Assembly: GCA_902630925.1 (NCBI GenBank)
Contig: CACOWO010000006.1
Span: 1 to 43,265 of the forward strand
Length of the DNA: 43,265 bases
DNA from: an uncultured Pelagibacteraceae bacterium
GTDB taxonomy: Bacteria; Pseudomonadota; Alphaproteobacteria; Pelagibacterales; Pelagibacteraceae
Direction: 5' to 3'
The notes under the pieces are model-generated. The model had not been told where the DNA came from. It saw only the letters and a program-made list of their open reading frames with translations, and did not search any database. Numbering within the stretch: the stretch's first letter is position 1; each line of letters starts with the position of its first letter. Positions 7,377 through 25,095 of the stretch are shown one piece after another. The translations under genes and the position numbers were made by a program.

Positions 7377-8789
7377 ATGAATTTCAAAAGTATAAGTTTT
7401 TATTTAAGTTTATTCTGTTTCCCGATTTGTTTATTAGCTTTTATAAATATACTATATGCTTCATACTTTGACTATTTTTTAAGTATATATACTTATTTTG
7501 CAGCGTTGATAACTTCATTGGTATTAGGCTTGGCACTTTTATATTATGGGAAAAATTCAAAAAAAAATATCAATTTTGTTGAACAATTAATATTGATAGT
7601 TCTTGCTTATTTTTTAACTGCATTACTAATATCTATACCATTCTACCTGAGTAATTATCAGGTTTCATTTTTAAATTCTATTTTTGAGTCAATATCTGGT
7701 TTAACAGGAACAGGTTTTTCTATTTTTAAAGATATAAAATATCTTGACCCAACACTTGTTCTTTGGAGGTCTTCTTCTCAATGGATAGGAGGCTTATTTT
7801 TTTTATTTTTCTTAATAATAATTTTTTCAAATAAATCATTCAATTTTAAAATGACAAATCTAACATATGCTGGAGACAATAACTTTAATTCTGAGAATAA
7901 TATAAAAGAAAATTTATTAAGGATTTTTATAATTTACTCTGTTCTTAGCATTCTTGTTCTAAGTTTGCTTAATTTATCAGGCATAAGATTATTTAATTCA
8001 CTAAATATGAGCATGACATTAGTTTCAGGAGGTGGTTTTTTACCAACAGATAGTTTGAGTAAAATAATTTCTACAAATTTTCAAAAAGCAATATTTATAT
8101 TTTCATTAATAATATCTATGCTAAATTTTTACTTATTATTCAATTTATTCAATAGAAATATTATAATTAAGGAACACAAAGAAGATCTATATTTGATAAT
8201 TCTATCATTTATATTCTGTTTACTGATATATTTTAATAATTATGATGGCTTAGATATAATCATAAGTGTAATAAGCAGTTTATCAAATTCAGGGTTAACT
8301 CTTATGAAGTCAGATAATAATTTAAGTTTATATTTTTTATTAATTACAATAGTAGGTGGATCATTAATATCAAATTCCTCTGGTATTAAACTAATAAGAT
8401 TTTATATTTTATTAAAAATTACTTCTTTAGAAATAATTAAGCTTGTTAGCCCTAACAGTATTATAAATAAAACTATCTTTAATACAGATAAAAGAATATC
8501 AGAAGATAATATAAAAATATCTTTTTTAATATTTATATCTTTTTTTTTAAGCCTTTTTATTTTATCTAGCTTATTGGTAGTTGATAATATTGGGTTTGAA
8601 AAATCTTTTAAATTGTCAATATTAACTTTAACTAATACCGTAAACTCTGAAATATTTAATATGCACAATTTAAATTTTTCTAACCTATTAACATCTTCAA
8701 AAATAAGTTTAATTTTATTTATGATAATTGGAAAAATTGAGCTAATATCAATTTTTTTAATTTTCAAAAAAATATTATTAAAAGATTGA
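7377..8789 (+). CDS. trkH: Trk potassium transporter membrane subunit TrkH
   Basis: 470 residues from the ATG at 7377; a TTG lies immediately before it, but ATG is the better start. Highly hydrophobic with four M1-P-M2 repeats. Pore loops can be picked out: P1 SGLTGTGFS, P2 SGGGFLPTDS, P3 SLSNSGLTLM and P4 TLTNTVNSEIF. The first three keep the filter glycine; P4 has Val422 at the usual glycine position. The C-terminal GKIELISIFLI matches the family's GRLELL helix. Forms the K+ translocating channel with TrkA. Its stop overlaps the gpsA start (TGATG). Confidence 0.9.
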   Translation: MNFKSISFYLSLFCFPICLLAFINILYASYFDYFLSIYTYFAALITSLVLGLALLYYGKNSKKNINFVEQLILIVLAYFLTALLISIPFYLSNYQVSFLNSIFESISGLTGTGFSIFKDIKYLDPTLVLWRSSSQWIGGLFFLFFLIIIFSNKSFNFKMTNLTYAGDNNFNSENNIKENLLRIFIIYSVLSILVLSLLNLSGIRLFNSLNMSMTLVSGGGFLPTDSLSKIISTNFQKAIFIFSLIISMLNFYLLFNLFNRNIIIKEHKEDLYLIILSFIFCLLIYFNNYDGLDIIISVISSLSNSGLTLMKSDNNLSLYFLLITIVGGSLISNSSGIKLIRFYILLKITSLEIIKLVSPNSIINKTIFNTDKRISEDNIKISFLIFISFFLSLFILSSLLVVDNIGFEKSFKLSILTLTNTVNSEIFNMHNLNFSNLLTSSKISLILFMIIGKIELISIFLIFKKILLKD

Positions 8790-9835
8790 TGTCAAAAATT
8801 GTAATTATTGGTGCAGGTGCTATGGGTTCAGCTTTTGCTCTACCTTGTTTAGATAATAAACATGATATTAATATTATTGGCACTCACTTAGAAAATGATT
8901 CAATTGACCAATTAAAAAATAATAATAATTTACACCCAGGTCTTAACACAAAGATTCCTCAAGAAATTAAAATTTTTAAATTTGAAAAATTCAACGATTT
9001 ACTTAAATCAAATGTAGATTTAATTGTTCTTGGTATAAGCTCTAAAGGTATTGAGTGGGCAGCTGATCAATTAAGTAGAATTTATAAAGATAATAAAATT
9101 CCGAAATTACTTATGCTTACAAAAGGTTTAAGTATTCATAATAATCAATATGAATTATTAGTAGACAAGCTAGAAAGATTGTTAGCTGATAGAGGAGTCA
9201 AAAAAGTTGATATCTCTGCTGTTGGAGGCCCTTGTTTAGCAGCCGGATTAGCTAATAGAGTTCATAGCAGTGTTATAATTGCAAATAAAGATATTCAAAC
9301 TGCCAAAAAAATTGCTGACATGCTTAATACCAATTATTACCACACTTCACACTCGGATGATCTAAATGGCGTGGAAGTTTCAGCTGCTATAAAAAATATT
9401 TTTTCTATGGCTGTTGGAGCAGCGAAAGGTTTATGTAGTAAAAATGTTTCTAATGAAGTAAGAGAAAAAAATTATTTAAATACAGCATCTGCTTTAATTA
9501 AACAATCAATTCATGAAATGGAAGTTTTTGTAGAACATCTAAAAGGAAGAAAGGAAACTGTAAAAGGGTTAGCAGGTTTAGGAGACCTTTATGTAAGTTC
9601 AGGTGGTGGAAGAAATGCAAAAATGGGATCTTACATTGGAGAAGGATTAACTTTTTCAGAAGCTAAAAAAACAAAGATGGAAAAAGTAACAGTTGAAGGA
9701 GCAGATCTAGCAAAAGAAATTGCAAAAAAGGTAAATGAAGATTTTGATCAAAAAAAATTACCTTTAATGCTTGGTATGATCAATGCTATTGTTGATAATA
9801 AAAAATTAGAATTAGACTGGGAGTCATTTAGGTGA
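8789..9835 (+). CDS. gpsA: NAD(P)-dependent glycerol-3-phosphate dehydrogenase
   Basis: 348 residues from the ATG at 8789 (TTG just before it is less likely). N-terminal Rossmann motif GAGAMGSAFA at residues 7-16; LMLTKGLS, the SAVGGPCLA substrate loop, EVSAAIKNIFSMAVGAAKGL with the catalytic lysine, and GLAGLGDLYVS are all GpsA hallmarks. It interconverts glycerol 3-phosphate and dihydroxyacetone phosphate. Placed directly before glpK (stop/start overlap at 9832-9835) and a glycerol importer, it may run in the oxidising direction, in place of FAD-dependent GlpD, as well as feeding phospholipid synthesis. Direction is inference from context. Confidence 0.85.
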   Translation: MSKIVIIGAGAMGSAFALPCLDNKHDINIIGTHLENDSIDQLKNNNNLHPGLNTKIPQEIKIFKFEKFNDLLKSNVDLIVLGISSKGIEWAADQLSRIYKDNKIPKLLMLTKGLSIHNNQYELLVDKLERLLADRGVKKVDISAVGGPCLAAGLANRVHSSVIIANKDIQTAKKIADMLNTNYYHTSHSDDLNGVEVSAAIKNIFSMAVGAAKGLCSKNVSNEVREKNYLNTASALIKQSIHEMEVFVEHLKGRKETVKGLAGLGDLYVSSGGGRNAKMGSYIGEGLTFSEAKKTKMEKVTVEGADLAKEIAKKVNEDFDQKKLPLMLGMINAIVDNKKLELDWESFR

Positions 9836-11313
9836 AGAAATTTATTATCTCGATTGATGCTGGGACTACATCGAATAGATCGATCCTTTTTGACTTAAAA
9901 GGAAAACCGGTTTATTCGTCACAAAAAGAATTTACACAGTATTTTCCAAAAAGTGGTTGGGTCGAACATAACCCAGAAGAAATTTGGAGAACAACTTTAA
10001 AAACTTTAAAAGATGTTATTAAAAAAACAAAAAAACTAAGAGGTGAAATTTTAAGTATAGGTATAACTAACCAAAGAGAAACTACTGTTTTGTGGGACAA
10101 AAAAACAGGTAAACCAGTTTATAATGCAATAGTTTGGCAAGATCGTAGACAAGAGGAGTTTTGTAAAAAATTAAGAAAACAGAATAAAGATACTATGATC
10201 TTTAACAAAACAGGTCTTTTAATTGACTCTTATTTTTCAGGAACAAAAATTAAATGGATACTTGATAATGTTTCTAAAGCTAAACAACTAATGAACAAAA
10301 AACAATTATTGTTTGGAACCATCGATAGCTTTTTAATTTGGAGATTAACTAGAGGAAAAATACACGCTACTGATGCTACAAATGCAAGCAGGACAATGAT
10401 TTTTAATATTAGTTCAAATAAATGGGATGATACGATTTTAAATTTGTTAAAGATAAAAAAACATATTCTTCCTGAAGTAAAAGATTGTGCTGATGATTAT
10501 GGTCAAACTCATTCATCAATTACCGGTAAGTCTATTCCAATAAACGGTGTAGTAGGTGACCAACAATCAGCGACTATTGGCCAATGTTGTTTTGAACCAG
10601 GCTCTCTCAAAAGCACTTATGGAACTGGGGCTTTCGTTTTATTAAATACTGGAAATAAAAAGATTTATTCTAAAAATAGACTATTAACTACTATAGCCTA
10701 TAGAATTAATGGAAAAACTACATATGCGATGGAAGGATCAATCTTTATTGCTGGAGCAGGGGTTCAATGGTTAAGAGATAGAATGAAATTTTTTAAGAAA
10801 GCACCAGAAACAGAAAAAATAGTTAAGTCACTAAAAAATAATAATGACATATATTTAGTTCCAGCATTTACAGGTTTAGGGGCACCTTACTGGAATGCTA
10901 ATGCTAGAGGAGTTTTAAGTGGTATTACTAGAGACACAAGTCCTAAAGAAATAGTGAGAGCGACAATAGAAGCAGTTGCGTATCAAACTTTTGATTTATT
11001 TGAAGCAATGAAACAAGATGGTTTAAGACCAAAAATTGTTAAAGTAGATGGTGGCATGGTAATGAATAATTGGTTTTCACAATTTTTATCTGATATTGTA
11101 AGTGTAAAAGTTTTAAGACCTAAAGTTCAAGAAACAACAGCATTAGGCGCTGCTTTTATGGCTGGAATGCAAGTTGGGATTTATAAATCCCTAAAAGATA
11201 TTTCAAGAAATTGGAGCTTAGATAAAAAATTCTCTCCTAAGATGAAAAATAATTCTAGATCTAGTCTGATCAAGGGATGGAATAAGGCTGTAAAGAGAGC
11301 TTTAATAAATTAG
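9832..11313 (+). CDS. glpK: Glycerol kinase
   Basis: 493 residues, standard length for FGGY-family GlpK. The GTG start overlaps the gpsA stop (GTGA). N-terminal phosphate loop SIDAGTTSNRSILFD, the NQRETTVLWDKKTG and VWQDRR substrate-site segments, LIDSYFSGTK, the GVVGDQQSA motif, the family signature TYGTGAF and the C-terminal KVDGGMVMN ATP motif are all present. Phosphorylates glycerol to glycerol 3-phosphate in the cytoplasm, trapping what the downstream GlpVSTPQU importer brings in. A 97-base gap separates it from glpV. Confidence 0.94.
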   Translation: MKKFIISIDAGTTSNRSILFDLKGKPVYSSQKEFTQYFPKSGWVEHNPEEIWRTTLKTLKDVIKKTKKLRGEILSIGITNQRETTVLWDKKTGKPVYNAIVWQDRRQEEFCKKLRKQNKDTMIFNKTGLLIDSYFSGTKIKWILDNVSKAKQLMNKKQLLFGTIDSFLIWRLTRGKIHATDATNASRTMIFNISSNKWDDTILNLLKIKKHILPEVKDCADDYGQTHSSITGKSIPINGVVGDQQSATIGQCCFEPGSLKSTYGTGAFVLLNTGNKKIYSKNRLLTTIAYRINGKTTYAMEGSIFIAGAGVQWLRDRMKFFKKAPETEKIVKSLKNNNDIYLVPAFTGLGAPYWNANARGVLSGITRDTSPKEIVRATIEAVAYQTFDLFEAMKQDGLRPKIVKVDGGMVMNNWFSQFLSDIVSVKVLRPKVQETTALGAAFMAGMQVGIYKSLKDISRNWSLDKKFSPKMKNNSRSSLIKGWNKAVKRALIN

Positions 11314-11410: not shown

Positions 11411-13144
11411 ATGTTAAGAATATTAAAGAACATTTTAGCTGTTGCTGTTTCAATTTCTCTTATAACTATTTCAAATGCTGTAGCCGACGGACACATGGCT
11501 GCAATAAAGAAATGGTCTAATGGTGAGTTTAGTCTTTCTACAATTTCTGCAAAAGAAAGAGAGAAAGAGTTACAATGGTTCTACGATGCGGCAAAACCAT
11601 TCAAAGGAATGGAAATCAACGTGTTGTCAGAAACAATTCCAACTCACGTATATGAATCAAAAACTTTAACTAAAGCTTTTGAGGAAATAACTGGAATTAA
11701 AGTAAACCACCAGTTATTGGGAGAAGGAGAAGTAGTACAAGCAGTACAAACTCAAATGCAAACTGGAAGAAACTTATATGATGCATACATCAATGACTCA
11801 GATTTGATTGGTACGCATTCAAGATTACAGTTAGCAGTAAACTTAACTAAGTGGATGAAAGGTGAAGGTAAAGATGTTACTTTACCAACATTAGATATCG
11901 ATGATTTCATCGGTAAATCATTTACTACAGGTCCAGACGGTGATTTATATCAGTTACCTGACCAACAATTTGCTAACCTTTATTGGTTTAGAAAAGATTG
12001 GTTTGACAGACCTGAAATTAAAAAAGGTTTTAAAGCTAAATACGGATACGACCTTGGTGTACCAGTAAACTGGTCTGCTTACGAAGATATCGCTGAGTAC
12101 TTTACAAAAGATGTGAAGAATATCGATGGTGTTAGAGTATACGGTCACATGGACTACGGTAAGAGAGCTCCAGACTTAGGATGGAGAATGACTGACGCGT
12201 GGCTATCAATGGCTGGCGCAGGTTCAGTTGGTAAACCTAACGGAGTACCAGTAGATGAGTGGGGAATAAGAATGGAAAAAGGTTCTTGTAATCCAGTTGG
12301 TGCTGACGTGGCAAGAGGTGGGGCTGCTAATGGTCCTGCTGCCGTATATGCAATCAGAAAATGGGACGAGTGGTTAAGAGCCTATGCACCTCCAGGTGCT
12401 GCGGCGATGGACTTCTATCAGTCTCTGCCAGCTTTATCATCAGGAAACGTTGCTCAGCAAATTTTCTGGTATACAGCGTTCACGGCATCAATGGTTGCTC
12501 CAAAGAGTTCTGGAAACAAAACAGTTGACGATAAAGGTAATCCTTTATGGAGAATGGGACCATCACCAAAAGGTCCTTACTGGGATGAAGGTATGAAGCT
12601 TGGTTATCAAGATGCTGGATCATGGACTTTATTTAAGTCTACTCCAGTTGATAGAAGAAAAGCTGCATGGTTATACGCTCAGTTTGTAGTATCAAAAACT
12701 GTTGATCTTAAGAAAAGTGATGTTGGTTTAACTATCATTAGAGATAGTACAATCAACCACAAACACTTTACTAAGAGAGCTCCAAAACTTGGTGGACTTG
12801 TAGAATTCTACAGATCTAAAAATAGAGTATTGTGGTCACCGACAGGTATCAACGTTCCGGATTATCCGAAACTTGCACAAATCTGGTGGCAACAAATTGG
12901 AGACGTAAACTCAGGCGCGTTTACTCCACAACAAGCTATGGATCGTCTGGCTGAAGAGATGAACTTAGTTATGTCACGTATGGAAGCTGCTGATAAAGCA
13001 AATAATACATACGGTGGATGTGGTCCAAGATTAGCTAAGCCAAAAGGCGCTGCTTATTGGTTGAAACAACCAGGATCACCTAAAGCTAAACGTAACGAGA
13101 AACCTAAAGGAAAAACAGTTCCATTCGAAAAAGCTTGGAAGTAG
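11411..13144 (+). CDS. glpV: Glycerol-type ABC importer, periplasmic binding protein GlpV
   Basis: 577 residues, large for a binding protein but typical of the GlpV type described in rhizobia. Signal peptide about 1-25 with cleavage after SNAVA. The mature protein has family 1-like features such as EITGIKVNHQLLGEGEVVQAVQTQM and a C-terminal DVNSGAFTPQQAMDRLAEEM segment. It heads a run matching the rhizobial GlpSTPQUV set (two ATPases, two permeases, a DUF2160 protein), which supports glycerol as ligand, though related sugar alcohols are possible. Codon use is visibly less AT-biased than the neighbours (more TAC, AAC, GGA/GGT choices), as expected for a very highly expressed gene. A terminator follows at 13165. 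Confidence 0.87.
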   Translation: MLRILKNILAVAVSISLITISNAVADGHMAAIKKWSNGEFSLSTISAKEREKELQWFYDAAKPFKGMEINVLSETIPTHVYESKTLTKAFEEITGIKVNHQLLGEGEVVQAVQTQMQTGRNLYDAYINDSDLIGTHSRLQLAVNLTKWMKGEGKDVTLPTLDIDDFIGKSFTTGPDGDLYQLPDQQFANLYWFRKDWFDRPEIKKGFKAKYGYDLGVPVNWSAYEDIAEYFTKDVKNIDGVRVYGHMDYGKRAPDLGWRMTDAWLSMAGAGSVGKPNGVPVDEWGIRMEKGSCNPVGADVARGGAANGPAAVYAIRKWDEWLRAYAPPGAAAMDFYQSLPALSSGNVAQQIFWYTAFTASMVAPKSSGNKTVDDKGNPLWRMGPSPKGPYWDEGMKLGYQDAGSWTLFKSTPVDRRKAAWLYAQFVVSKTVDLKKSDVGLTIIRDSTINHKHFTKRAPKLGGLVEFYRSKNRVLWSPTGINVPDYPKLAQIWWQQIGDVNSGAFTPQQAMDRLAEEMNLVMSRMEAADKANNTYGGCGPRLAKPKGAAYWLKQPGSPKAKRNEKPKGKTVPFEKAWK

Positions 13145-13211: not shown

Positions 13212-14276
13212 ATGAGCTTAGAATTAAAAAACGTAGAAAAAAAAATAGGATTAGACACTCATATTTATTCAACAAATTTAAAATTAGAAAAAAATACTAT
13301 CAATATTCTTTTAGGCCCAACACTTTCAGGCAAAACTACACTCATGCAAATTATGGCCGGGCTCGATAAACCTACCTTAGGTGAAATTTGGTTTAATGAA
13401 AAAAATGTTACTGGAATGAAAGTTCAAAAAAGAAACGTTTCAATGGTTTATCAACAATTTATTAATTATCCTAATTTCACTGTTTATGAAAATATTGCAT
13501 CTCCGCTAAAAATTACTGGTGTTAGTTCAGATGAAACAAAACAAAGAGTTGGAAAAGTTGCTGAATTATTGAAATTATCAGGAATGCTTAATAAAAAACC
13601 TAATGAACTTTCGGGTGGTCAACAACAAAGAACAGCATTAGCTAGAGCCTTAGTAAAAGACTCAGACTTAATTTTACTCGATGAACCCTTGGCAAATTTA
13701 GACTTTAAACTTCGTGAAGAATTACGAGAAGAGCTTCCAAGATTGTTTGAAGATAGAGATTGTATCGTTGTGTATGCAACAACAGAACCTTCAGAAGCCC
13801 TATTGCTTGGTGGAAATACTGCAACTTTACAAGAAGGAAAAGTAATTCAGTATGGCAAAACTTTAGATGTTTACAATAAGCCAAATTCCTTACTATCAGC
13901 ACAAGTATTTAGTGATCCTCCAATGAATATTACAAAAATTAAAAAGGTTGGAGATAATTGCTCTTTTTTAGATGACTCAGTTAATTGGAAAAGTAAAATT
14001 AATATAAGAGACGGGGAATATAAAGTAGGAATAAGGCCACACAATATTACCACATATAAAGAAGGAAGTAATTCTCTTGAGATAAAAGGCAAAGTTTTGA
14101 TATCAGAATTAAGTGGATCTGAAAGCTTAATTCATTTTACTAAAGGTGATTTAAATTGGGTCTCACTATCAAACGGTATTGTTCAAAAGAATGTTGGAGA
14201 TGAGATGAATTTATATATGAATGCTGATGAATTTATATACTTTGATCATAACGAGAGGCTGGTAACTAATGGCTAA
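13212..14276 (+). CDS. glpS: Glycerol-type ABC importer ATPase GlpS
   Basis: 354 residues, MalK/UgpC-type ATPase. Walker A GPTLSGKTT at about 36-44, Q-loop YQQF, intact signature LSGGQQQR, Walker B LILLDEP and D-loop ANLD; a C-terminal TOBE-like regulatory domain from about 240. The switch (H-loop) histidine is missing: where the family has YVTHDQ, this reads YATTEP. Its own ATP pocket is therefore probably poor, while its signature motif can serve the partner GlpT. It overlaps glpT by 8 bases. Expected to sit on the inner face of the membrane with GlpPQ. Confidence 0.87.
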   Translation: MSLELKNVEKKIGLDTHIYSTNLKLEKNTINILLGPTLSGKTTLMQIMAGLDKPTLGEIWFNEKNVTGMKVQKRNVSMVYQQFINYPNFTVYENIASPLKITGVSSDETKQRVGKVAELLKLSGMLNKKPNELSGGQQQRTALARALVKDSDLILLDEPLANLDFKLREELREELPRLFEDRDCIVVYATTEPSEALLLGGNTATLQEGKVIQYGKTLDVYNKPNSLLSAQVFSDPPMNITKIKKVGDNCSFLDDSVNWKSKINIRDGEYKVGIRPHNITTYKEGSNSLEIKGKVLISELSGSESLIHFTKGDLNWVSLSNGIVQKNVGDEMNLYMNADEFIYFDHNERLVTNG

Positions 14277-15333
14277 GATTACTTTAAAAGATTTAAGTCA
14301 TAGTTATTTAAAGACACAATCTTCTGATACTGATTGGGCTGTAAGAAATGTTAATATTGATTGGAACGATGGTGGTGCTTATGCATTACTAGGACCATCA
14401 GGCTGTGGGAAGACAACGCTTTTAAATATTATTTCAGGCCTGATTAATCCAACTAGAGGAGATATATTATTTGATGATAAAATGGTTTCAAATTTAAACC
14501 CAGTTGAAAGAAATATAGCTCAAATTTTTCAGTTTCCAGTAATTTACGACACTATGACAGTTTATGATAATTTGGCCTTTCCATTAAAAAATAGAAAAAT
14601 TGAAGAAGAAAAGATCAAATCAAAAGTTCATGAAATAGCAGAGATGCTAGAACTTACTTCAACATTAAATAACAGAGCTTCAGGTTTAACGGCTGACGGG
14701 AAACAAAAAATTTCTTTAGGAAGAGGTTTAGTTAGATCAGATGTAAACGCAATTATGTTTGATGAGCCACTTACCGTAATTGATCCTCATTTAAAGTGGA
14801 TTTTAAGATCGAAGCTAAAAGAACTTCATCAAAAAATAAATAGAACAATGATTTATGTGACACATGACCAAACAGAAGCTTTAACATTTGCTGATCAAGT
14901 TGTCGTGATGCATGAAGGACAAATTGTACAAACTGGCACACCAGTTGATCTTTTCGAGAAACCAAAACATACATTTGTTGGTTATTTTATTGGTTCACCT
15001 GGTATGAACTTACTTCCATGTGAACTAAAAGGAGGCGAGGTAATCGTTAATGGAAAAAAAATTGAAATTCATAAAAAAGTAAAATCGAATAGTTTTAAAA
15101 AAACTGAAGTTGGTGTTAGACCCGAATTTATAAATTTTAGCTCTGATGGTATTCCTGTTAAAGTTTTATCAGTAAGTAATACAGGGAGACATAAAATTGT
15201 AGACACTCAGAGTGAAAGTGGGAAAATTAAAATAATTGCAAAACCTAATGAAAATATCCCTTCAGGTTCTGCATTCTTAAACTTTAAAAAAGAATACACT
15301 TACGCGTATGGAGACGATTGGATTATAGAATGA
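14269..15333 (+). CDS. glpT: Glycerol-type ABC importer ATPase GlpT (degenerate signature)
   Basis: 354 residues, paralogue of GlpS and not the G3P antiporter that shares this name. Walker A GPSGCGKTT, Q-loop IFQFP, Walker B IMFDEP and an intact H-loop VTHDQTEA are present. The signature LSGGQQQR is replaced by LTADGKQK and the D-loop SNLD by TVID. The C-terminal part (about 240-354) is a TOBE-like domain. Paired with GlpS this gives one canonical and one degenerate composite ATP site. Its stop overlaps the glpP ATG (ATGA at 15330). Confidence 0.87.
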   Translation: MAKITLKDLSHSYLKTQSSDTDWAVRNVNIDWNDGGAYALLGPSGCGKTTLLNIISGLINPTRGDILFDDKMVSNLNPVERNIAQIFQFPVIYDTMTVYDNLAFPLKNRKIEEEKIKSKVHEIAEMLELTSTLNNRASGLTADGKQKISLGRGLVRSDVNAIMFDEPLTVIDPHLKWILRSKLKELHQKINRTMIYVTHDQTEALTFADQVVVMHEGQIVQTGTPVDLFEKPKHTFVGYFIGSPGMNLLPCELKGGEVIVNGKKIEIHKKVKSNSFKKTEVGVRPEFINFSSDGIPVKVLSVSNTGRHKIVDTQSESGKIKIIAKPNENIPSGSAFLNFKKEYTYAYGDDWIIE

Positions 15334-16196
15334 ATAAAACAATAAATCAGAAAGCTTGGTTTTTTGTAATTCCTGTTTTTGTATTGGTTGCCTTCAATGC
15401 AATCATACCGCTAATGACAGTTGTGAATTATGCTTTTCAAGAAACTTTTGGAAATAATGTTTTCATGTGGGAGGGTACAAGATGGTTTAAACAAATAATG
15501 TTGTCTGAAAGATTTCATGCCTCATTAGGTAGACAATTTTTATTTACGTTCATAATTCTATTTATTCAAATACCTTTAGGAATAGCCATAGCACTTACAA
15601 TGCCTAAAGAGGGAGTAGGGGTACCTGTTTGTTTGGTTTTAATGTCTATGCCTCTTTTAATTCCATGGAATGTTGTTGGAGCGATGTGGAATATTTTTGC
15701 ACTACCAGATATTGGTTTTTTAGGTCATTCATTAAATGCATTGGGATTTGATTATAATTTTACTCAACAAATTGGAGATGCGTGGTTTACGACAATCTTA
15801 ATGGATGTATGGCATTGGACTTCATTGGTAGTTTTATTGTCTTATGCAGGTTTGCAATCAATTCAACCAGCTTATTATCAGGCTGCAGAGATTGATGGGG
15901 CAAGTCGATGGGCTGTATTTACAAAGATTGAATTACCAAAAATGAAAAAAGTTTTAACTATCGCAATACTTTTAAGATTTATGGATAGCTTCATGATTTA
16001 CACTGAACCATTTGTTTTAACTGGTGGTGGACCAGGAAATGCTACCGCATTTTTATCCATTGACCTTGTAAAAATGGCTTTAGGCCAATTTGATTTAGGT
16101 CCAGCTGCTGCTATGTCATTAATATACTTCTTTATTGTATTATTAGTTTGTTGGGTTTTTTACACTCTGATGATGAGGAATGAGGGCAATCAATGA
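15330..16196 (+). CDS. glpP: Glycerol-type ABC importer permease GlpP
   Basis: 288 residues from the ATG at 15330, which overlaps the glpT stop (ATGA); a TTG four codons earlier is an unlikely start. About six TM helices, the family's N-terminal AWFFVIPVFVLVAFNAIIPLM segment, and the ABC coupling motif AAEIDGASRWAVFTKIELPKM (EAA loop) at about 186-206. Type I importer permease that pairs with GlpQ. The glpQ start overlaps its stop by 4 bases. Confidence 0.88.
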   Translation: MNKTINQKAWFFVIPVFVLVAFNAIIPLMTVVNYAFQETFGNNVFMWEGTRWFKQIMLSERFHASLGRQFLFTFIILFIQIPLGIAIALTMPKEGVGVPVCLVLMSMPLLIPWNVVGAMWNIFALPDIGFLGHSLNALGFDYNFTQQIGDAWFTTILMDVWHWTSLVVLLSYAGLQSIQPAYYQAAEIDGASRWAVFTKIELPKMKKVLTIAILLRFMDSFMIYTEPFVLTGGGPGNATAFLSIDLVKMALGQFDLGPAAAMSLIYFFIVLLVCWVFYTLMMRNEGNQ

Positions 16197-16993
16197 AAAA
16201 AGCTAAATGGATAGTTCCAACAATTTACATTATTTTTTTGATGCTTCCAATTTATTGGTTGTTAAATATGTCTTTTAAAACAACTACTGAGATCATTAAT
16301 ACATACACTTTATGGCCTCAAGAATTCACTTTAGAAAATTATAAAACAATTTTTACAGATAGCACTTGGTACACAGGTTATCTCAACTCAATTTATTATG
16401 TAGTAATGAATACAGTTATATCTGTTGCTGCAGCGTTACCCGCTGCATACGCTTTCTCAAGGTATAAATTTTTAGGAGATAAACACTTATTTTTCTGGTT
16501 GCTCACGAATAGAATGGCACCACCAGCTGTTTTTGCATTACCTTTTTTTCAATTTTATTCATCAGTAAATTTATTTGATACACATGTGGCCGTAGCTCTT
16601 TCACATTGTTTATTTAATATTCCTTTAGCTGTATGGATTTTAGAAGGATTTATGTCCGCAGTACCCAAAGAATTAGATGAAACTGCTTATGTAGACGGCT
16701 ACTCTTTTTGGAGATTTTTTTTCAAAATATTCATACCAACAATAACTGCAGGTATCGGTATTACAATGTTTTTCTGTTTTATGTTTTCATGGGTAGAATT
16801 ATTATTAGCAAAAACATTAACTGCTGTAGCAGCGAAACCTATAGCAGCTACGATGACCAGAACTGCCAGTACGTCAGGATATGAGCTAGGATTGCTTGCA
16901 GCGGCAGGCAGTTTAACTATTATACCAGGTGCAATCGTTATTTATTTCGTAAGAAACTACATTGCAAAAGGATTCGCTTTAGGGAGAGTATGA
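16193..16993 (+). CDS. glpQ: Glycerol-type ABC importer permease GlpQ
   Basis: 266 residues, second type I permease (MalG-like class). Six TM helices; N-terminal MLPIYWLLNMSFKTTTEI typical of the group; EAA loop ELDETAYVDGYSFWRFFFKIFIP at about 163-185 for docking on an ATPase. ATGA overlap with glpP upstream and with glpU downstream, so tightly coupled translation. Not the glycerophosphodiesterase that shares the symbol in E. coli. Confidence 0.88.
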   Translation: MKKAKWIVPTIYIIFLMLPIYWLLNMSFKTTTEIINTYTLWPQEFTLENYKTIFTDSTWYTGYLNSIYYVVMNTVISVAAALPAAYAFSRYKFLGDKHLFFWLLTNRMAPPAVFALPFFQFYSSVNLFDTHVAVALSHCLFNIPLAVWILEGFMSAVPKELDETAYVDGYSFWRFFFKIFIPTITAGIGITMFFCFMFSWVELLLAKTLTAVAAKPIAATMTRTASTSGYELGLLAAAGSLTIIPGAIVIYFVRNYIAKGFALGRV

Positions 16994-17349
16994 TGATGTT
17001 TAATGTTTTAAATGCTGCCACGTGGGGTGATATGGCTAAGGAAAAGGAGAAAGGCTTCTTTGAATTTGAATTTATTACTTGGATGGCATGGACTTGGCAG
17101 ACGGCTGCATTTTTTATATTTATAGCTTTATGTTTAACTGCGATGGTTGTTTGGGAAAAAAAATCACCAGGAGGCAGTCCTAGAAAAGGTATTTTAGGTT
17201 TAGATACAACAAGAGGTGATAGGTTGTTTATATCTTTATTAGGTAGCGCTTTTATTCACCTTTTTTGGTTGGCTTTAATTGGAAGTGTGCTATGGGTAGC
17301 TACAATTTTATGTGTAGGTTACGCTGTAGTTGTTTTTAGATATGTTTAG
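16990..17349 (+). CDS. glpU: DUF2160 small membrane protein GlpU
   Basis: Up to 119 residues; three ATG codons in a row at 16990, 16993 and 16996 make the exact start uncertain. Sequence WMAWTWQTAAFFIFIALCL, then KKSPGGSPRKGILGLDTTRGDRLFISLLGS, then a second and third hydrophobic stretch: the pattern of DUF2160 membrane proteins encoded within glycerol ABC operons (GlpU of rhizobia). The role is unknown; constant linkage suggests an accessory subunit of GlpPQST. A strong AGGAG site for gap lies right after its stop. Confidence 0.82.
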   Translation: MMMFNVLNAATWGDMAKEKEKGFFEFEFITWMAWTWQTAAFFIFIALCLTAMVVWEKKSPGGSPRKGILGLDTTRGDRLFISLLGSAFIHLFWLALIGSVLWVATILCVGYAVVVFRYV

Positions 17350-24024: not shown

Positions 24025-25095
24025 ATGGTTGAAAATTTTTTTGAAATCCAAAATGGCTATTTTACTGCTAGTGAAAAAAATAAAGTAAATGACGTAAATC
24101 TTGTAATTGAAAATCAAGGAGAGATTGTTTCTCTACTAGGGCCATCTGGGATTGGAAAAACAACAATTTTAAGAACTATTGCTGGCTTACAAAAACTTAG
24201 TAAAGGTAAAATAAAACTTGGAAAAAGGTTTTTAGCTTCAGATGATATTCATATAGAACCAGAAAAAAGAAACGTTGCTCTATCATTTCAAGATAATTCA
24301 CTTTTCCCTAATTATAAAATTATTGATAATATAAATTTTGGAGTAAAAAGAACCAATGGAAACAGTTCATCTATAAATGTAAACGAAATCATTGAACTAT
24401 TAAGAATTGAACCAATTTTAAAAAAATATCCTCATCAAATTAGCGCCGGAGAAGCTCAAAGAGTTTCACTAGCAAGATCTTTAATGTCAAAACCTGATTT
24501 ACTATTACTTGACGAACCTTTTTCAAATATTGATCAAAGTTTAAAAGATGAAATTCAAGTTTCAGTTAAAAAATTGTTAAAGAGAATTAATCTAACAACA
24601 ATAATTGTAACTCATGACTCTTACGAGGCTTTTTCAATGGCAGATAAGTGTGGAATTATATTGGGTCAAGAACTTAAACAGTATGACATTCCTTATAATG
24701 TTCATCACGAGCCGAATTCAATTGCCGTAGCAAATTTTTTAAATAAGGGTATTTTTATTGATGTTCAAGTAGTTGACAGTGAATGTGCTGTACATAGATT
24801 AAGGCACGATGAACTCGGCGAAATACGTGGAAAATTATCGAACAATTTTCCTTCAGGAGCTAAAGTTAAACTTCTATTACAACCGGAAGATTTAATACAT
24901 GATGATCAAAGTAAGTTAAAATTAGAAGTGGTAGATAGAAAGTTTAAAGGAACCAATTTTATCTATACTTTAAAAACTAAAAAAGGTGAACATTTACCAG
25001 TATTTGTTCACTCTCACCACATTCACCAACATGAGAAGTCCGAACAATTTGGAGTAAAGTCTCCGATTTATATTGACCACTTAGTATGTTTTTAA
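24025..25095 (+). CDS. fbpC: Ferric iron ABC importer ATPase
   Basis: 356 residues. Walker A GPSGIGKTT at about 38-46, Q-loop SFQDN, signature ISAGEAQR (a variant of LSGGQQQR), Walker B LLLLDEPFSNID and H-loop VTHDSYEA. The C-terminal TOBE-like domain (about 235-356) ends with a His-rich HSHHIHQHEK run that is unusual and could bind metal. Energises FbpB. The operon ends here; tRNA-Arg follows 19 bases later. Confidence 0.9.
   Translation: MVENFFEIQNGYFTASEKNKVNDVNLVIENQGEIVSLLGPSGIGKTTILRTIAGLQKLSKGKIKLGKRFLASDDIHIEPEKRNVALSFQDNSLFPNYKIIDNINFGVKRTNGNSSSINVNEIIELLRIEPILKKYPHQISAGEAQRVSLARSLMSKPDLLLLDEPFSNIDQSLKDEIQVSVKKLLKRINLTTIIVTHDSYEAFSMADKCGIILGQELKQYDIPYNVHHEPNSIAVANFLNKGIFIDVQVVDSECAVHRLRHDELGEIRGKLSNNFPSGAKVKLLLQPEDLIHDDQSKLKLEVVDRKFKGTNFIYTLKTKKGEHLPVFVHSHHIHQHEKSEQFGVKSPIYIDHLVCF

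Follow-up and report, generated by a model that had tools for sequence, protein, structure and literature searches.

One complete and one degenerate composite ATP site in the paired MalK-type ATPases of a probable SAR11 glycerol importer

Background

Type I importers are usually explained by way of MalFGK2, in which the two ATP sites are equal: two copies of MalK pair with each other, and both sites are canonical. The window analysed here, that is, the whole stretch of 43,265 nucleotides of contig CACOWO010000006.1 from an uncultured Pelagibacteraceae bacterium, departs from the typical MalK-type arrangement of two canonical sites made from one gene: it carries two adjacent ATPase genes with complementary losses, and one site is incomplete. 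The question raised by this locus is whether the losses in both subunits fall consistently in the same composite ATP site, and whether a site so altered would still have a part to play in the transporter.

Motifs of GlpS and GlpT

The two genes, glpS (13212-14276) and glpT (14269-15333), lie on the forward strand with an overlap of eight bases and encode MalK-type ATPase subunits of 354 amino acids each; the coordinates and frames given for them in the earlier, sequence-only reading were right. Both proteins contain PF00005 and have MalK-type ATPases as their best solved relatives, which places them in the MalK-type (CUT1) group, and by sequence and predicted fold they are alike to the ATPases of MalFGK2/CUT1 importers. 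Structure prediction gives a MalK-like monomer for each, the signature helix lying at residues 135-148 in GlpS (pLDDT 90.8) and at residues 142-154 in GlpT (pLDDT 86.6). Of the two, only GlpT has an OB_MalK domain above the cut-off, and both fall under the curated UgpC cut-off.

Translation of glpS renders the Walker A motif GPTLSGKTT (13314-13340, positioned from the translation), the Q-loop MVYQQF, a canonical signature LSGGQQQR (13608-13631), the Walker B/D-loop region LILLDEPLANLD, and an H-loop, VYATTEPSEAL, in which Thr191 (codon at 13782-13784) occupies the place of the switch His of MalK relatives. In the alignment with the solved ATPase 1V43, 'yvthdqvea' lies opposite 'yattepsea' of GlpS, and the His of 1V43 faces Thr191. 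GlpT has GPSGCGKTT, QIFQFP, the sequence LTADGKQK replacing LSGGQQQR at residues 140-147 (14686-14709), the region AIMFDEPLTVID (FDEPLTVID) with TVID as D-loop at residues 169-172 (14773-14784), and a canonical H-loop, IYVTHDQTEAL, whose switch His is codon 199 (14863-14865). The description of both subunits in the sequence-only reading, a GlpS devoid of the switch His that keeps LSGGQQQR and a GlpT that keeps its H-loop with signature and D-loop altered, is thus borne out by the translations, by the 1V43 alignment in the case of GlpS, and by the relatives described below. A lone ATPase gene elsewhere in the window (24025-25095) has a signature, ISAGEAQR, mildly off LSGGQ, with normal Glu and His.

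In the passages of PMC7756269 used here, a composite site is described as being formed by Walker A/B, the Q-loop and the H-loop of one NBD and the signature of the other, and the D-loop of TM288 is said to reach the nucleotide in the degenerate site. According to this geometry, the altered GlpT signature and D-loop and the missing GlpS histidine belong to one site, which retains the GlpS Walker A motif, and the GlpS signature and the GlpT switch His belong to the other.

Gene company and probable substrate

The ATPase genes stand among other genes on the forward strand that would encode the remaining parts of an importer. They include GlpV (11411-13144, PF01547), a periplasmic solute-binding protein from the operon of the two ATPases that owes its name to similarity with the rhizobial glp operon, the permeases GlpP (15318-16196, PF00528) and GlpQ (16193-16993, PF00528), and a small GlpU-like membrane protein with DUF2160 (16990-17349, PF09928, E 3.7e-34). 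The TTG listed as start of GlpP at 15318 is probably too early; the ATG at 15330, which forms an ATGA overlap with the stop of GlpT (15330-15333), is the likelier start. Adjoining the transporter genes is a gene at 9832-11313, on the same strand, which to judge from its translation is probably a glycerol kinase gene, glpK, and the gene at 8786-9835 is presumably glycerol-3-phosphate dehydrogenase-like.

The same parts are found, according to their annotation, in rhizobial records, namely glpD, two ATPases, two permeases, the DUF2160 protein, the binding protein and glpK. With two ATPases in tandem, a pair of permeases, the DUF2160 and binding proteins and the glp metabolic genes, the window has the gene set of a GlpSTPQUV importer. 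It resembles GlpSTPQUV of R. leguminosarum VF39 in having two ATPases, two permeases, DUF2160 and a binding protein beside glpD/glpK, although the gene order of the window, in which glpV precedes glpS, is a different one, and the ATPase pair of R. leguminosarum CC283b (L285) has the same motifs as the window pair. The closest named relative of GlpT, among the best 80 of 585 matches, is in a Pelagibacteraceae genome (94% identity, L094), which places the window in SAR11. A probable glpK next to the importer genes speaks for glycerol as the substrate, so that, from gene company and rhizobial precedent, the window importer would most naturally be taken as a glycerol importer. The gene set glpSTPQUV is named in PMC7912956. 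On the use of glycerol by R. leguminosarum VF39 it refers to Ding et al. 2012, a study that by its title makes this use depend on the transporter, and it reports, in the parts drawn upon here, that growth of Cupriavidus metallidurans on glycerol continues upon deletion of the homologue; the ATP sites of GlpSTPQUV are not discussed in those parts. The same parts also describe that de-repression of the GlpSTPQUV homologue in C. metallidurans increased zinc resistance.

Co-occurrence of the two losses in relatives

Homologues were collected by several routes. In a search of the class, GlpT-type matches (E<1e-100) were found in 33 of 289 genomes, forming a sharp group in which all 33 have E < 1e-108 and the next match is at 4e-71; GlpS-type matches were found in 32 genomes, all of them within those 33, the remaining one being a case of a contig edge. 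Loci were added from a search of the phylum (85 of 398 genomes matching, up to 30 loci taken), from a search of the SAR11 order (72 of 247 genomes matching, up to 30 loci taken), from 80 named loci (73 alpha-, 5 gamma- and 2 betaproteobacteria; the best 80 of 585), and from 60 regions picked from match lists, weak matches included; one further set gave no new pair. In the class, phylum and order searches the whole protein was scored, with five to eight candidates per genome, and reading frames were taken from stop to stop. The scan of genome contigs that gave the 80 named loci used the patterns [LM]FDEPLTV and FIGSPGMN; since one of them includes the D-loop, it is biased to the usual D-loop and, alone, is no test for others.

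The 254 loci examined rendered 249 adjacent pairs, or 208 once identical copies had been removed, among which near-identical strains or genomes held in two collections may persist; clustering at 66% GlpT identity reduces them to 23 clusters. In the five loci that contributed no counted pair, GlpT is at a contig edge (L110, L136, L225), the pair was missed by the distance rule and has the same pattern (L165), or another tandem family is present (L187).

Both losses were found in all 30 pairs from the class search, of which the window pair is one, and in all of the 208 distinct adjacent pairs, which come from alpha-, beta- and gammaproteobacteria, as well as in nine further plasmid pairs, two of them from Streptomyces. 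GlpS has LSGGQQQR and the catalytic Glu in 208 of 208, with Thr (171) or Ser (37), and never His, at the His position. In GlpT, the signature is non-canonical in every one of the 208, its fourth position being Asp in 207 and the exception reading LGAADKQK, and the TVID D-loop, the switch His and the Glu are each present in 208. Mixed patterns, which would have spoken against the sequence-only reading, were looked for: neither in the 208 distinct pairs nor in the nine plasmid pairs does any GlpT have an intact signature or any GlpS the His, and none was found in the most divergent relatives collected, namely the second SAR11 system (see below), Ponticoccus, Streptomyces, Photobacterium, Sphaerotilus and the outlier G643. 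The losses cannot be attributed to an error in a single genome, given that 208/208 pairs carry both. These pairs, considered with the published composite-site geometry, support the earlier proposal that both main defects meet in one composite site and leave the other complete, as in heterodimeric ABC transporters with one degenerate site.

Near relatives of MalK type served as controls, selected as such and not at random. Out of 20 fetched, 19 keep SGG, Glu and His (the stretches for these 19 extend ca. 0.6 kb per side), and the 20th (L263) is non-canonical. Six plasmid relatives are canonical too (L284, L304-L306, L311, L312), which brings the controls to 25 of 26, the exception, L263, belonging to a tandem family described below. 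L284, from Rhizobium sp. Pop5 (37% identity to GlpT), is a single canonical ATPase.

SAR11 matches are arranged in two tiers, 34 at 75-100% identity and 41 at about 48-52%, three genomes having both. The second tier corresponds to a different importer, made up of an alcohol dehydrogenase, a binding protein, two permeases and the ATPases S' and T' (L178:1812-7282; the names come partly from an annotated relative). This system is also found on a Roseobacter plasmid (L283) and, in another phylum, on two Streptomyces plasmids (L287, L288). The same asymmetry is present in 13 distinct S'/T' genome pairs and in these three plasmid pairs. In L186, the system is followed by putative genes for a sugar dehydrogenase, an epimerase and a galactokinase.

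The altered site is conserved

In 23 diverse representatives, the residues that replace the canonical ones are themselves nearly fixed: in GlpT, D143 is present in 22/23 and K145, Q146 and TVID in 23/23, and at the His position of GlpS 18 representatives have Thr and the other five Ser. The nucleotide-binding residues of GlpS, Lys41 and Thr42 of Walker A and Asp157 of Walker B, are present in 23/23, and so is the catalytic Glu158. Variable positions are residues 141 and 144 of GlpT and 36 and 38 of GlpS. With Lys, Thr, Asp and Glu all retained, the defective site should still bind Mg-ATP, and a combination of fixed new residues with conserved nucleotide-binding ones is unlikely under decay, indicating a site that is degenerate and not decayed. 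The site had been described as dead-looking, which is too strong a word for it: what it has lost to replacement is the His, together with the signature and D-loop on the facing subunit. Most likely, the odd site binds Mg-ATP and has another job, and it is possible, as the catalytic Glu is kept in GlpS, that some hydrolysis takes place there. Not every ABC ATPase is inactivated when its switch His is lost.

Other tandem MalK-type pairs

Genomes chosen for their many matches or for prior inclusion were surveyed for tandem ATPases, the adjacent pairs being picked by eye. In 13 genomes and one megaplasmid, among the matches listed, at least eight GlpST pairs, at least four pairs of a family E/F and at least one of a family C/D were seen. 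A further family, A/B (L293, 1630-3833, and L298-L300), was first met through the control locus L263. In family A the signature is LGASELQR, LGGSELQR or MGGSQLQR and the D-loop is SNLE, with a normal H-loop; in its partner, family B, Pro replaces the switch His and an acidic residue, Asp or Glu, the Gln of the Q-loop, and SGG is kept. The first signature residue of family B is Phe or Met and not Leu, a mild change on an otherwise complete site. In the third asymmetric family, C/D (L301-L303), the signature of C reads LSVNILQR and its D-loop SNVD, and D has a normal signature and His with a change of Glu to Asp in Walker B (DDP). In L301 and L303 the C/D pair adjoins genes annotated as an oxidoreductase and a sugar phosphate isomerase/epimerase.

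The first signature residue of B apart, all the defects of A/B and C/D are in the site made by Walker, Q-loop and H-loop of the second partner and signature and D-loop of the first. When the altered signature is used to define the defective side, the remaining altered motifs are concordant with it in 7/7 cases (two in GlpST, three in A/B and two in C/D); a crude sign test gives about 1 in 128 for this, a value that deserves little weight, being post hoc and obtained from families that may share ancestry. Family E/F (L187, L307-L310, L313) is essentially canonical, with Glu and His in both partners and LSGG in F in 6/6. The signature of E is slightly loosened in 3/6 (LAGG twice, LSSG once), and the side affected is the one that is altered in the asymmetric families. 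Pairing of two ATPases does not, therefore, by itself force asymmetry. The E/F pair adjoins annotated dihydroxyacetone kinase genes in L313 and a look-alike gene in L309.

Ancestry of the partner lineages

In a tree of 85 proteins with the motif columns removed, GlpS, S' and B group together (97/81), with D and F joining this side (86/93), and GlpT, T', A and C form another group (92/91) in which A goes with C (99/93). An earlier tree of 80 proteins also joined S, S' and B (97/88) and left A ungrouped with GlpT. Neither T, T' and A as one clade (AU 0.46) nor B and D as one clade (AU 0.41) was rejected. GlpS and GlpT were closest kin, as would be expected from a recent duplication, in neither the 80- nor the 85-protein tree. 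It is plausible, with moderate tree support, that the ATPases that lost the signature group together and their partners group separately, as two partner lineages, and also that loss of the signature took place a single time or on a few occasions, with the catalytic residue of the partner lost by at least two routes.

A broader reading can tentatively be built upon this, one to which we grant somewhat less than an even chance. There may have been an early split between GlpT/A/C-like and GlpS/B/D/F-like ATPases, after which, in the heterodimers, the signature of the former would have degenerated first. The catalytic residues of the latter would have gone later, always in the same site but along two routes or more, GlpS and B losing His and D losing Glu. 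Single-site hydrolysis would then be a stable state of type I importers, repeatedly perfected, of which the nearly canonical E/F pairs would be a living intermediate.

A proposed single-site motor and its alternatives

As the probable explanation for these observations, in which we place good but not full confidence, we propose that GlpS and GlpT form an obligate heterodimer that powers the GlpSTPQ(U)V glycerol importer and in which one complete site hydrolyses ATP and the other holds nucleotide with slow or no hydrolysis. The complete site would consist of Walker A/B and the H-loop of GlpT with the signature of GlpS, and would drive the cycle. The other, formed by Walker A/B of GlpS with the signature and D-loop of GlpT, has the residues for Mg-ATP binding; lacking the switch His and the signature glycines, it would hydrolyse little or not at all and would serve as a nucleotide-bound hinge or allosteric contact. 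By analogy with exporters, the nucleotide bound to GlpS may prevent the ATPases from coming apart from one cycle to the next. The cost of transport would be nearer one than two ATP per glycerol. Since a complete site is present only in heterodimers, each protein would, as a result of the losses, depend on the other.

It could also be the case that both sites hydrolyse ATP, with Thr or Ser and the following Glu-Pro of GlpS and Asp-x-Lys-Gln of GlpT providing an alternative chemistry that keeps the second site working. The replacements are indeed nearly invariant, Glu and the Walker A Lys of GlpS are present in 23/23, and Thr or Ser could form a hydrogen bond; the unrelated replacements in the corresponding site of the other families (Pro for His, Asp or Glu for the Q-loop Gln, Asp for Glu, and the signature LSVNILQR), however, fit a loss of hydrolysis better, so that we consider this alternative unlikely. 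Another possibility would be that the degenerate site works as a nucleotide sensor, preferring ADP or responding to the ATP/ADP ratio, and throttles glycerol uptake at low energy. An Asp at the signature glycine position in 207/208 GlpT proteins, with an invariant Lys two residues on, would be in line with it, as Asp143 near the position of the gamma-phosphate would disfavour ATP, but families A and C carry Ser or Asn there, so that a sensor could not account for the asymmetry in general; we consider it quite improbable. Finally, a homodimer of GlpS or of GlpT, or the pairing of either with another MalK-like ATPase, would render the asymmetry meaningless, and although MalK-type ATPases such as MsmX can serve several transporters and a canonical MalK-like ATPase (G000:C1:4899) is present in this genome, the adjacency, co-occurrence and 8-base overlap of the two genes, and the two incomplete sites that homodimers would have, make this very improbable.

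The proposed obligate heterodimer resembles exporters with a degenerate site (TAP, CFTR/MRP, TM287/288), in which the defects of both NBDs also meet in one composite site. In the passages of PMC7756269 used here, the signature is described as altered in all human degenerate sites, and ATP in the degenerate site is inferred to stabilise the closed dimer and serve as a hinge. Exporters differ in that their Walker B Glu is often altered too, whereas GlpS keeps it; in family D, Glu is changed to Asp. As for importers, the claim that such asymmetry is rarely noted has to be narrowed, as one degenerate site has already been reported for RbsA and NupO (PMC11466899, in the part used here). GlpST is not of this CUT2 type, in which the two NBDs are fused and the second Walker A has no Lys: GlpS and GlpT are encoded by separate genes and both have the Walker A Lys. 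E. coli DppDF is like GlpST in consisting of two different ATPases in a bacterial importer, but both its ATPases have functional motifs and both can hydrolyse, according to the part of PMC12136057 used here. Single-site function was not found in the parts of the OpuA paper PMC8199443 drawn upon, and no report of an asymmetric MalK-type heterodimer was found in the part of the open-licence literature consulted, which is weak evidence; among the papers listed there, a genome report is the one in which the name GlpSTPQV occurs. Degenerate sites are thus known in exporters and in RbsA/NupO, and what would be new is the case of a putative MalK-type (CUT1) heterodimer.

Conclusions

The motif pattern of GlpS and GlpT, the co-occurrence of their losses and the conservation of both are accompanied by a trans-complementary layout in other tandem MalK-type families. 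If the proposed mechanism is true, nature itself would offer, in a conserved MalK-type pair, an importer that runs on a single complete site, in which the hydrolysis events per transport cycle could be addressed site by site without artificial heterodimers. The fact that several families have the same layout by way of different residues makes the order of events, signature first and catalytic residue second, testable, and if the reading of two partner lineages is true, single-site hydrolysis would be no speciality of exporters. SAR11 bacteria are among the carriers of this system, and for them an ATP saved per glycerol could matter.
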